This document shows positions 3,311-11,710 of a DNA stretch of 48,968 bases, piece by piece. Below the pieces are notes generated by a model. The model was not told where the DNA came from, did not search any database, and saw nothing but the letters and a program-made list of their open reading frames with translations. Positions within the stretch are counted from its first letter, which is position 1; each line of letters starts with the position of its first letter. A program made the translations under genes and the position numbers. The DNA comes from Planococcus sp. A6 (lineage in GTDB: Bacteria > Bacillota > Bacilli > Bacillales_A > Planococcaceae), in contig NZ_JAPEHT010000006.1 in the NCBI RefSeq assembly GCF_028823615.1, positions 1 to 48,968 on the forward strand, given 5' to 3'.

Positions 3311-3338
3311 TTGGATAAAAATATAAAGAAAATACTAT
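3311..3338 (+). promoter_or_regulatory. Candidate sigma-A promoter for the TPP riboswitch/lipM-lipA transcript
   Basis: TTGGAT at 3311-3316, a 16-bp AT-rich spacer and TACTAT at 3333-3338, about 60 bp before the aptamer. The match is moderate and the region is AT-rich, so chance similarity is possible. Confidence 0.45.
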
Positions 3339-3395
3339 TTAGTATATTGAGATTTCTTGAAAGAAATGATAAGCTCGAGAAGAACAATACATAGC

Positions 3396-3491
3396 TGACC
3401 ACTGGGGGAGCCGGAATTGACTGGCTGAGACGAGCGAATGCTTGGACCCCTTGAACCTGATCTGGACCATGCCAGCGTAGGGAAGTGGTAC
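3396..3491 (+). ncRNA. TPP riboswitch (THI element) aptamer
   Basis: All hallmark segments are present in order: GGGGGAGCC, GGCTGAGA, ACCC, TTGAACCTGATCTGG and GCCAGCGTAGGGAAG. Closing stem P1 pairs 3398-3403 (ACCACT) with 3484-3489 (AGTGGT). The same 3' strand can instead form an anti-terminator: GGAAGTGGT at 3481-3489 pairs with ACCGCTTCC at 3516-3524, which is the 5' arm of the downstream terminator. TPP binding would stabilise P1, free the terminator and switch transcription off. The genes downstream are lipM-lipA, not thiamine genes. Confidence 0.95.
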
Positions 3492-3513
3492 GTATGCTTC
3501 CTTTTGCCTGCAT

Positions 3514-3547
3514 ACACCGCTTCCCCATGGGAAAGCGGTGTTTTTTT
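3514..3547 (+). terminator. Riboswitch-controlled intrinsic terminator upstream of lipM
   Basis: The stem 3515-3525 with 3531-3540, followed by T7, lies 23 nt after the TPP aptamer. Its 5' arm is shared with the predicted anti-terminator. It ends about 45 nt before the lipM start codon, with no gene between. Confidence 0.92.
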
Positions 3548-3591
3548 ATGGGCTTTGAAGTCATGCATAAGCTGAGAGGAGTTGAGACATT

Positions 3592-4428
3592 TTGGAGGAA
3601 ACATGGGGCTATATGGAGTCGGGGCTTTGCACGCCGGCACACAATATGGCAATGGATGAAGCATTGATGAACTGGCAGCGTAAGACAGGCATGAAGCCTG
3701 TGCTCCGATTTTATGGATGGGCGCCAGCCGGCATTTCAGTGGGATTTTTCCAGAAACTGAATGGCAGCATCGATCTCAAAAAAGCCGCGCAAATGGGCAT
3801 CCCTTTGGTCAGGAGGCAGACAGGCGGAAAAGCCGTACTCCACGATCAGGAGTTGACTTACAGCGTGGTGATACCGGAACATCATCCATCCATGCCGAAA
3901 TCAGTAAAAGAAGCGTATTTGGTCATTTCCCGAGGCTTGCTTGAAGGCTACCGCAATTTAGGCATTCAAGCAAAACTGGCTGCGGAGAAGAAGCGTTCGA
4001 AAGAATCTTCAGCGGTCTGCTTTGAAGAACCGTCTTGGCATGAATTGACTGTTGAGGGTCGAAAAGCGGCAGGAAGCGCGCAGACAAGAAAACAAGGCAT
4101 CATTTTGCAGCACGGCTCGATTCCGCTTCAGCTTGATGAAAACCAGTTGTTCGACTTGTTCGTGTACCCGAGTGAAGTGGTGAAGGAAAGGGCGCGTCAA
4201 GCTTTCCGAACACGTGCCGTTGCAATCAACGAACTAATGGAAGAACCGGCAAGTTTAGAAGAAGTGCAACAGGCATTCAAGGATGGATTTGAAACGGGGC
4301 TTGGCATCCGTCTAGAAAAATTCGAACCGCCAGCTGAACTATTGGAAGAAGTGCACGTGCTCGAAGCCAAATATGCAAGCGAAGAATGGAATCACAGACG
4401 AGAAGAGAAAGGGGAACTTATGCGATGA
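3592..4428 (+). CDS. lipM: Octanoyl-[acyl-carrier-protein]:protein N-octanoyltransferase LipM
   Basis: A 278-residue biotin/lipoate A/B transferase-fold protein beginning [25 protein letters not shown], colinear with B. subtilis LipM. Diagnostic segments are [35 protein letters not shown] and [13 protein letters not shown], where Cys143 corresponds to the catalytic cysteine of LipM. The enzyme moves octanoate from acyl carrier protein to GcvH, the first committed step of lipoate assembly. The start is TTG 3592, with AGAGGAG upstream. Its stop overlaps the lipA start (ATGA), so the two are translationally coupled. Transcription is predicted to be switched off by TPP through the leader riboswitch. 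A lipoate ligase (LplA) is less likely because of the LipM-type N-terminus and the lipA neighbour. Confidence 0.92.
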
Positions 4429-5369
4429 CAAAAACAAAGCAGCGTGAACGTAAACCCGAATGGCTCAAAGTGAAATTGAACACCAATGAAACTTATAATG
4501 ATCTGAAGAAACTAATGCGGGAGAAAAATTTGAACACGGTATGTGAGGAAGCCAGATGCCCGAACATCCATGAATGCTGGAGTGAACGCCGCACCGCGAC
4601 CTTCATGATCCTGGGCGATACGTGTACAAGAGCGTGCCGGTTCTGCGCCGTCAAGACTGGGTTGCCGAACGAACTGGATTGGGGCGAGCCGGAGCGCGTA
4701 GCGGAATCGACAGAAATCATGAACTTGAAGCATGTCGTCGTTACAGCAGTTGCCCGTGATGATTTGAAAGATGGCGGTGCTGCCGTTTTTGCGGAAACTG
4801 TCCGTGCCATCCACCGGAAAATGCCAGAAACTACCGTCGAAATCTTGCCGTCCGACATGAAAGGCGATTACGAAAGCTTGCATATGTTGATGAGCAGCGA
4901 GCCGGATATTTTCAACCATAATATTGAAACGGTGCGGCGCCTGACCAAGCGTGTCCGTGCGAGAGCGACTTACGACCGTTCGCTGGAATTGCTATTGCGG
5001 GTCAAGGAAATCGCACCGCATGTGCCGACCAAATCAAGCATCATGGTTGGACTCGGGGAAACGAAAGAAGAGATTATCGAAGCGATGGATGATTTGTTGG
5101 CGCACAAAGTCGACATCATGACGATCGGCCAATATTTGCAACCGACATTGAAGCATTTGGACGTTGTCCGTTATTACCATCCGGACGAGTTCCAGGAATT
5201 GAAGGAAATCGCATTGGCGAAAGGCTTCAAGCATTGCGAGGCCGGCCCGATGGTGCGTTCTTCATACCATGCGGATGAGCAAGTGAACGAAACCGCTGTG
5301 CAGAAACGCATCAAATACATGAAAGGCGTCGAATCGACTGGCGCAAAAATCGAGCGTATCGAATTTTGA
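4425..5369 (+). CDS. lipA: Lipoyl synthase
   Basis: A 314-residue radical-SAM enzyme that inserts two sulfur atoms into protein-bound octanoyl groups to make lipoyl groups. It shows the auxiliary cluster motif with cysteines at 40, 45 and 51 ([12 protein letters not shown]), the radical-SAM CxxxCxxC at 67, 71 and 74, and the C-terminal RSSYHADEQ motif that supplies the serine ligand. The start is ATG 4425, overlapping the lipM stop by 4 nt with AAAGGGGAA upstream; an in-frame ATG at 4386 lies inside lipM and would add a non-family tail. With lipM it forms the endogenous lipoate pathway, placed here under a TPP riboswitch. Confidence 0.97.
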
Positions 5370-5416: not shown

Positions 5417-5914
5417 TTGAGGAAAATACTTATTGCGGCCATGCTGTTAGCTGCTGCGCTGTTCATTACTGGCGCATGCAGCCCGCTTCTGGCGGCAAAG
5501 GAACCAGACCTCTTTGAGTATGAAGGGGCGGTAGTAGGGAATAACAGTGCTGTCCTCAATACCCTTAACAGGCTGCCGGGCGCAGAGCATTTTACAGGCT
5601 TTGAATTGGAAACGAAACAACAGCCTTATGGAATCATCGCCTCTTACGATTGGACAGAAACCGCGTCATCGGATAAAGAAACCGCGGTCCGCAATGCAAC
5701 GTATTTGTTTACGCTGATCGACAATGTGGAGCGGGTCCAATTTGACTTCGACACAGGAGCAGGCGTTGAACAATACCGCTTAACGAGAGAGCGATTGCAA
5801 GCTTGGTACGAAGTGGATTTGACCGGAATTGATGAGCAAGAGAAATTGGAAGAGCTGATCGAACAATATTTGGATGAAGACCGAAAAATTGACGCGCTGT
5901 TAACACAATCCTGA
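5417..5914 (+). CDS. DUF4825-type lipoprotein
   Basis: A 165-residue exported lipoprotein. A hydrophobic signal (ILIAAMLLAAALFITGAC) ends in a lipobox with the lipidated Cys at 21. The mature part (YEGAVVGNNSAVLNTLNRLPGAEHFTGFELETKQQPYGIIASYDW) matches the DUF4825 pattern, a domain of unknown function in Bacillales lipoproteins and anti-sigma-like proteins. It starts at TTG 5417 with AGAGGAGAG upstream, 47 nt after lipA, so it may be cotranscribed with lipM-lipA. Nothing in it suggests a role in lipoate metabolism. Confidence 0.8.
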   Translation: MRKILIAAMLLAAALFITGACSPLLAAKEPDLFEYEGAVVGNNSAVLNTLNRLPGAEHFTGFELETKQQPYGIIASYDWTETASSDKETAVRNATYLFTLIDNVERVQFDFDTGAGVEQYRLTRERLQAWYEVDLTGIDEQEKLEELIEQYLDEDRKIDALLTQS

Positions 5915-11295: not shown

Positions 11296-11410
11296 ATTCT
11301 CATCTTCCAAATGCTAGAGCATTTGCAGGAATTAGCACAGTTTTCGCTGGTTTGCGAATCTGCTGCCGAAACGTCATAGGGCCTGTCCCTCGGTTTCTCT
11401 GGATAAGAAA
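11296..11410 (-). ncRNA. SAM-I (S-box) riboswitch of metNIQ
   Basis: Reading the minus strand, the aptamer contains CTTATCCAGAG, GAGGGACAGGCCCTATGA, CGGCAGC and the closing strand GATGAGA. The two ends (11402-11408 and 11298-11304) pair as P1 with one G-U. High SAM would favour the downstream terminator and switch off methionine uptake. Confidence 0.93.
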
Positions 11411-11595: not shown

Positions 11596-11710
11596 CTCTT
11601 ATCACGAGAGGCGGAGGGAATAGGCCCTACGATGCCCGGCAACCAACAGGCTCATGTCTGGAAAGGTGCTAAATCCTACAGTGCGCATTTGCGTCGCTGA
11701 AAGATAAGAG
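11596..11710 (+). ncRNA. SAM-I (S-box) riboswitch of metY-metX
   Basis: A canonical S-box: P1 strands CTCTTATC (11596-11603) and GATAAGAG (11703-11710), with internal conserved segments GAGGGAATAGGCCCTACGATG, CCCGGCAACC and AAGGTGCTAA-type joining sequence. It is followed by a terminator at 11731-11762. High SAM should terminate transcription before metY. Confidence 0.96.

Follow-up and report, generated by a model that had tools for sequence, protein, structure and literature searches.

Cofactor riboswitches are usually regarded as giving feedback control over the cofactor that they sense. In Planococcus sp. A6, a leader of the TPP class is followed by lipM and lipA, two genes of lipoate assembly. 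TPP and lipoate work in the same 2-oxoacid dehydrogenase complexes, and here the sensor of one cofactor appears to govern the synthesis of the other. The locus raises the question of whether this leader is a working TPP switch on lipoate synthesis, and what such wiring would be good for. The window analysed, which means the whole stretch of DNA, is 48,968 nucleotides long (contig NZ_JAPEHT010000006.1, positions 1 to 48,968). The features discussed are collected in Table 1.

Table 1. Features of the lipM-lipA locus and TPP sites of the same genome
Feature	Position	Strand	Evidence and remarks
Probable own promoter of lipM	TTGAGA 3347-3352; extended -10 TGATAAGCT 3367-3375	+	by eye; 17 bases between hexamers
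TPP riboswitch aptamer (THI element)	3394-3500	+	cmscan RF00059, 78.6 bits, full model 1-105/105
Antiterminator	3480-3489 with 3516-3525; 3492-3497 with 3510-3515	+	folding, -23.6 kcal/mol alone; pair counts
Intrinsic terminator hairpin	3514-3541; U-run 3541-3547	+	folding, -17.9 kcal/mol, one bulged A; pair counts
lipM, predicted octanoyltransferase-type LplA/LipB family member	3592-4428	+	278 aa, start TTG; PF21948 128 bits, PF03099 71 bits
lipA, lipoyl synthase	4425-5369	+	314 aa, start ATG; TIGR00510 403.7 bits; PF16881, PF04055
TPP site before tenA, then thiM-, thiD- and thiE-like frames			tenA by model, rest by resemblance and order
TPP site before thiT			
TPP site before YkoF-type gene			
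TPP site before NMT1-type substrate-binding gene with thiamine-binding protein gene			
TPP site heading a nucleoside-deoxyribosyltransferase-like gene	G000:C196, locus L323 11189-14980	-	outside the window

The leader of lipM matches the TPP aptamer in full

The initial annotation, made from the letters of the DNA, placed a complete THI-box aptamer upstream of lipM with no thiamine gene between them, and both statements were borne out. The match to RF00059 covers the full length of the model and lies over its gathering score (78.6 against 54.3 bits). The CUGAGA core and the ACCUGAUC...GCGUAGGGA core, whose residues we take to be those contacting TPP, are both intact in the Rfam alignment and in an alignment of 20 aptamers. 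Across the latter, the pyrimidine-side and pyrophosphate-side cores show little or no variation, in leaders of lipMA and of thiamin genes alike. The aptamer is separated from lipM by 91 bases, which leaves no space for a further gene, and this gap measures 72-98 bases in the 26 genus genomes with the arrangement, again too little for a thiamine gene. Members of RF00059 typically, though not by definition, precede genes for thiamin synthesis, salvage or transport; here the next genes are lipM and lipA. By its sequence, the lipM leader is a standard TPP riboswitch, an ordinary switch whose target pathway is new.

The downstream genes are assigned to lipoate assembly

LipM is predicted to be of the octanoyltransferase type. 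Both PF21948 and PF03099 match over their cut-offs, and the four NCBIfam ligase models that match LipM all stay below their own. Cys143 is invariant in 11 of 11 aligned sequences and is also found in three separately encoded LipM proteins (L062, L065 and L285), and the ligase 2ars has no Cys at the aligned place. We take Cys143 to be the catalytic Cys that is absent from ATP-dependent ligases. LipA lies over the equivalog cut-off of TIGR00510 (310.25 bits), and its closest solved relatives are lipoyl synthases. LipA also carries the two Fe-S cysteine motifs and the C-terminal RSSY of such enzymes.

The TTG start of lipM lies 44 nt past the U-run of the terminator, and the lipM stop and lipA start overlap in ATGA (4425-4428). 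A DUF4825 gene (5417-5914) starts 47 bases past lipA; of the 8 named loci in the window's subclade, 4 have it. It may be co-transcribed with lipMA.

Terminator and antiterminator compete for one strand

The antiterminator arm is the 3' strand of aptamer stem P1, and the antiterminator competes with the terminator. Its first helix consists of 10 pairs including one G-U and is extended by the second helix. A 9-bp antiterminator (3481-3489 with 3516-3524) had been proposed at the outset, which corresponds to the inner nine of these ten pairs. Folding also agreed with the proposal of a terminator that shares its arm with the antiterminator, as the hairpin at 3514-3541 overlaps the 3510-3525 strand. 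Sequence and folding thus give an expression platform that the aptamer could switch.

The terminator was not listed by a consensus promoter and terminator scan of the window, probably, in our opinion, because that scan allows no bulge. A bulge-free version of the hairpin occurs in some close relatives (L047-L049). The same scan gave no promoter before lipM. The probable promoter in Table 1 was read by eye, and its columns are conserved in an 11-sequence alignment of the window's subclade and upstream sequences. A 21-base box, ACTATTT(A/T)GTATATTG(A/T)GATT (3334-3354), sits upstream of and over the likely -35 and hardly varies within the window's subclade, unlike the sequence around it. This box may be a promoter element or an operator. 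An upstream operator common to all TPP-lipMA clades was considered and rejected, since the box was not seen in the upstream sequences examined from the other TPP-lipMA clades.

When the window leader was folded stepwise, P1 was present up to 3521, the antiterminator appeared at 3524-3536, and the aptamer together with the terminator prevailed from 3539. In this folding model, the order would be that expected of a kinetic OFF switch. The best fold of the full leader without ligand is already aptamer plus terminator (-58.6 kcal/mol). The finished, ligand-free leader thus prefers the OFF state, and any switching would need to be kinetic.

The arrangement is conserved in one lineage of the genus

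LipM (E<=1e-30) and LipA (E<=1e-80) were searched in 46 genomes of the genus Planococcus. LipM was matched in all 46 and LipA in 45, once in each genome. The two genes are adjacent in 26 genomes and lie apart in the other 20. Our own TPP model, built from 20 aptamers, detected an aptamer ahead of lipM in every one of the 26 adjacent pairs; given this recurrence, chance occurrence of the aptamer is not an issue. In the genomes with separate genes, the 1-1.5 kb searched ahead of each gene contained no aptamer at E<=10, be it lipM (20 of 20) or lipA (19 of the 19 found). The initial annotation had considered that the arrangement might be a recent deletion confined to this genome; aptamer-lipMA in 26 of the 46 genus genomes makes it a conserved arrangement.

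The two lineages also differ in the genes themselves. The lipM-lipA operon of the 26 genomes is of a type common to Halobacillus and its relatives. In the 20 genomes with separate genes, LipM is 46-51% identical to that of the window, and in 19 of them the separate LipA is 74-77% identical. From these identities, it looks as if one lipM/lipA pair was displaced by the other within the genus. In one of the 26 genomes (G019, C1:2684333-2685094), the first 59 residues of LipA have no in-frame match, which may be a sequencing error or a broken gene.

The aptamer recurs before lipMA beyond the genus

A scan of Planococcaceae for TPP leaders and their downstream genes had been suggested. In the family set of 261 genomes, which also served for the order, operon-type LipM (E<=1e-118) was found in 28 genomes, namely the 26 of the genus and 2 of another genus. 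Both of the latter have the aptamer and an adjacent lipA, so the leader precedes lipMA in all 28. Most loci from the genome searches extend only 1.5 kb past the match, and aptamers were counted within that reach.

In the Jeotgalibacillus family, LipM was matched in 12 of 12 genomes and lipA is adjacent in five. All five pairs have one TPP aptamer before lipM and a second after lipA (L280-L284). The other seven genomes show neither lipA nor an aptamer in the examined stretch around lipM. The order in Jeotgalibacillus is therefore TPP-lipM-lipA-TPP, with two leaders in series, and in L105-L107 tenA and thiM come next. LipM reached the threshold in 20 of the 43 genomes from the Peribacillus deserti family; two of these 20 carry the aptamer, one being P. 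deserti itself. The gap between aptamer and lipM is about 70-107 bases in the direct cases, and 171 and 190 bases in two loci of the Peribacillus family.

For the Oceanobacillus massiliensis family, the count was 36 of 159 genomes with LipM at the threshold, and the aptamer was found in 1 of the 30 loci scanned. In O. massiliensis (L138 1899-4782), the TPP leader is followed by a short-chain dehydrogenase gene resembling 3-oxoacyl-ACP reductase (PRK08642, 413 bits) and then by lipM-lipA, and the aptamer lies about 1.0 kb upstream of lipM. Among the relatives, O. massiliensis is thus one that does have a gene between leader and lipM. A fatty-acid-type reductase adjoins octanoate-using genes in this species. 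The intervening gene could be oarX, which we take to be a thiamin-regulated dehydrogenase.

The best 80 of 155 named LipM relatives were also analysed; this set overlaps the unnamed one, and the counts are not additive. A lipA match lies downstream in all of these 80. At the Rfam cut-off, a TPP aptamer is directly upstream in 22 of these best 80 of 155 loci, behind a dehydrogenase gene in one and divergent with tenA in one; none was found in the remaining 56. Planococcus citreus DSM 20549 (L099) has the leader. Most lipMA operons elsewhere have no TPP leader, which indicates that the pathway can do without one.

The union arose at least twice and was retained

The LipM tree has 85 rows. The fewest changes of TPP state on it are 3, with Oceanobacillus counted. 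When four long-branch rows were dropped (L109 and L139 among them bear the TPP leader), the fewest changes were 2 without Oceanobacillus and 3 with it. The AU test was made on the set without these four rows and without Oceanobacillus. There, grouping the 21 directly TPP-bearing rows into one clade was rejected (p-AU 6.9e-7). A single origin of all TPP-lipMA unions is thus rejected, and at least two unions are implied. That of Peribacillus deserti is a separate one. The Planococcus and Jeotgalibacillus rows fall together on one side of a branch, but its support is 0, so there may have been more than two unions.

The neighbourhoods differ between clades. In the 8 named loci of the window's subclade, pepT is downstream in all 8 and a STAS-like gene is upstream in 6. 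The other 14 directly TPP-bearing named loci have no pepT, STAS-like or DUF4825 gene within the examined flanks. The unit of aptamer, lipM and lipA stays together across clades while the flanking genes change.

The most serious alternative, which we still consider unlikely, is that lipMA was inserted behind a leader of thiamin salvage, so that the switch acts on lipMA although lipoate control was never what it was selected for. Several loci look like traces of such an event: in Jeotgalibacillus, lipMA is flanked by two TPP leaders, the second of which leads tenA, thiM and then a thiD-like frame; in Scopulibacillus, it adjoins a divergent TPP-tenA gene; and in O. massiliensis, it comes after a TPP-led gene. 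Because lipMA adjoins other TPP-led genes in these three, its capture from a thiamin neighbourhood is a plausible origin. Such a history may account for the origin but not easily for the retention. Both rival helices are kept down to about 59% LipM identity while the flanks differ, the union arose at least twice, and tenA in the window genome keeps its own TPP leader elsewhere. That the leader is the remnant of a lost thiamin gene was rejected for the direct cases, where the gap before lipM is too short, and was kept as an origin story.

Conservation and covariation of the expression platform

Terminators and antiterminators were scanned in 36 leaders, 28 of them in the family. In 20 of these 28, the antiterminator overlaps the 5' arm of the terminator by 11 or 12 bases. 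One subclade, made up of seven genus genomes (L055-L061), has an overlap of 0-3 bases and no antiterminator that clearly overlaps the terminator arm, and in the L048 leader the best-scoring stem differs from the antiterminator. Outside the family, the overlap is 2 and 7 bases in two leaders of the Peribacillus family and 5 bases in the Oceanobacillus leader. For Jeotgalibacillus (five leaders, L280-L284), no terminator came out of the scan, since the hairpin stops two bases short of the U-run; this hairpin was read by eye.

Covariation was analysed in 19 distinct platforms. Near-identical sequences had been thinned, and the L055-L061, Peribacillus and Oceanobacillus leaders were left out. In the terminator, 92.8% of cells are paired, against 38-58% in slid controls, and its covariation score was reached by 0 of 500 shuffles. 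In the antiterminator, the values are 96.4% against 31-61%, and 3 of 500 shuffles reached the score. Pairs changed on both sides are no more frequent than by chance, with 3 in the terminator against 2.1 in shuffles (171 of 500 reach this) and 2 in the antiterminator against 1.7 (324 of 500). The same holds for further pair types, which were reached by 416 of 500 shuffles for the terminator and 466 of 500 for the antiterminator. The covarying changes are clade-wide, and each may be a single event. At columns 14-45-74, most sequences have U-A-U and four sequences of one clade have C-G-C. By this swap, one shared base keeps both rival helices paired; the change is probably one event and is suggestive, not conclusive. 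Taken over these alignments, the terminator appears to covary, and the antiterminator is mostly kept, with weak covariation. This is consistent with the early impression that the leader is not decayed.

These data bear on the possibility that aptamer and terminator stand together by coincidence without coupling, or form an ON switch. The missing terminator in the standard scan, the OFF state as best fold even without ligand and the unclear platform geometry in the subclade of seven would fit it. We nevertheless regard it as improbable, since the 3' strand of P1 serves as an antiterminator overlapping the terminator arm in 20 of the 28 family leaders, as expected of OFF switches, and stepwise folding yields the expected order. 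A change of ligand, by which the aptamer would respond to lipoate, octanoate or a thiamin precursor and no longer to TPP, is very improbable. Product sensing would be the classical logic for lipMA, but the Rfam match is full-length and over the cut-off in 22 of 22 direct named cases and in the window, and the ligand-arm cores have hardly changed. A role of this type of LipM and LipA in thiamin metabolism, which would make the regulation ordinary and at which their repeated position near tenA might hint, is hardly conceivable, because at the thresholds used they are the only lipM and lipA found per genome, they replace the separately encoded pair of sister genomes, and LipA scores as a lipoyl synthase.

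A predicted OFF switch on lipoate synthesis

We consider it very probable that a TPP-sensing, transcription-terminating OFF riboswitch controls lipM-lipA, which is the only de novo lipoyl route detected in the genome. With TPP bound, P1 would hold 3480-3489, the terminator at 3514-3541 would form and transcription would stop before lipM. When TPP is low, 3480-3497 would pair with 3510-3525, the terminator would not form in time, and lipM and lipA would be made. LipM would then move octanoyl from ACP to GcvH, and LipA would insert two sulphurs. What the sequences show is the aptamer, both helices, the gene order, conservation and covariation, whereas TPP binding, the size and direction of the effect, the leakiness of the switch and a change in lipoylation are inferences. 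The TPP-lipMA leader is genuine and conserved, has the build of a functioning switch and falls outside the usual TPP regulon. Its conservation suggests that the supply of one vitamin sets the production of lipoic acid.

The OFF logic means more lipoate synthesis at low TPP, which is the opposite of simply matching the two cofactors. thiC (TIGR00190) was found in 0 of the 46 genus genomes and in 13 of 14 control genomes. Because thiC was not detected in the genus, TPP probably reports the outside supply of the vitamin or its precursors. Low TPP would then stand for a vitamin-poor setting, in which lipoate would be made rather than salvaged by an LplJ-like ligase. PF21948 detects two proteins in all in the genome, LipM and one LplJ-like ligase with a C-terminal domain. 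The gene of this ligase lies on a contig that bears none of the genome's six TPP sites, and a salvage ligase without a TPP leader fits a read-out of vitamin supply. We favour such a read-out over the matching of two cofactors. In its general form the idea is tentative and may well prove wrong: TPP would serve as a read-out of general B-vitamin supply, by which thiC-less Planococcaceae and relatives choose between making and salvaging a second, chemically unrelated cofactor, and would have been recruited for this more than once. The absence of thiC is common to both lineages of the genus, with and without TPP-lipMA, and so does not by itself explain why only one carries the wiring. To shut off an essential cofactor when another vitamin is plentiful would be risky, unless the switch leaks or lipoate accompanies thiamin. 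The locus offers a natural case for the study of cofactor coordination or vitamin-supply reading, in which congeners without the wiring can serve as controls.

Comparison with known systems

The leader resembles the terminator type of RF00059 in Bacillota, with the same aptamer, P1 as the switching strand and an antiterminator opposed to a terminator; it differs in its target, lipoate assembly. For 564 TPP sites in 249 genomes, one survey gives thiamin biosynthesis and the transport of thiamin or its precursors as targets (PMC3766115), and 'lipoate', 'lipoyl' and 'lip' have 0 occurrences in its main text. The available text of PMC2258182 has 0 occurrences of 'lipo', and in that of PMC12452182 'lipoate' is used only for gcvH. 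The initial annotation did not know a TPP-lipoate link as described. In agreement, no report of a TPP switch on lipoate genes was found among the matches listed in the literature searched, which was mostly open-access.

The enzymes are familiar. LipM, LipA and LplJ-type salvage ligases are alike in the LipM-LipA-LipL assembly of Bacillus subtilis and Staphylococcus aureus (PMC5049849). By their locus numbers (1494 and 0829), lipM and lipA lie far apart in S. aureus, whereas here they form one operon under a TPP leader. The acetoin dehydrogenase cluster of Pelobacter carbinolicus groups thiamin and lipoate genes with a complex that needs both cofactors (PMC3543383); unlike in Planococcus, the available text mentions no TPP riboswitch for its lipoate genes. 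In Shewanella, lipoate synthesis is under cAMP-dependent control (PMC4398509), also by a non-lipoate signal, but there the signalling runs through cAMP and not through an RNA switch for another vitamin. The locus is also a warning that labelling a gene as thiamin-related merely from a preceding TPP switch can mislead.

Other riboswitches in the genome

The genome has six TPP sites, and that of lipM is the only one on lipoate genes. The TPP-led operon at L323 contains nucleoside-deoxyribosyltransferase-like, thymidylate-synthase-like and methyltransferase-like genes and a gene for a HAD/NUDIX protein, which presumably resemble the genes for the thiamin antivitamin bacimethrin. The same contig also bears a TraG-type conjugation gene. 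Within the window, two divergent SAM (S-box) riboswitches lie 186 bases apart, at 11297-11409 on the minus strand and 11596-11710 on the plus strand.
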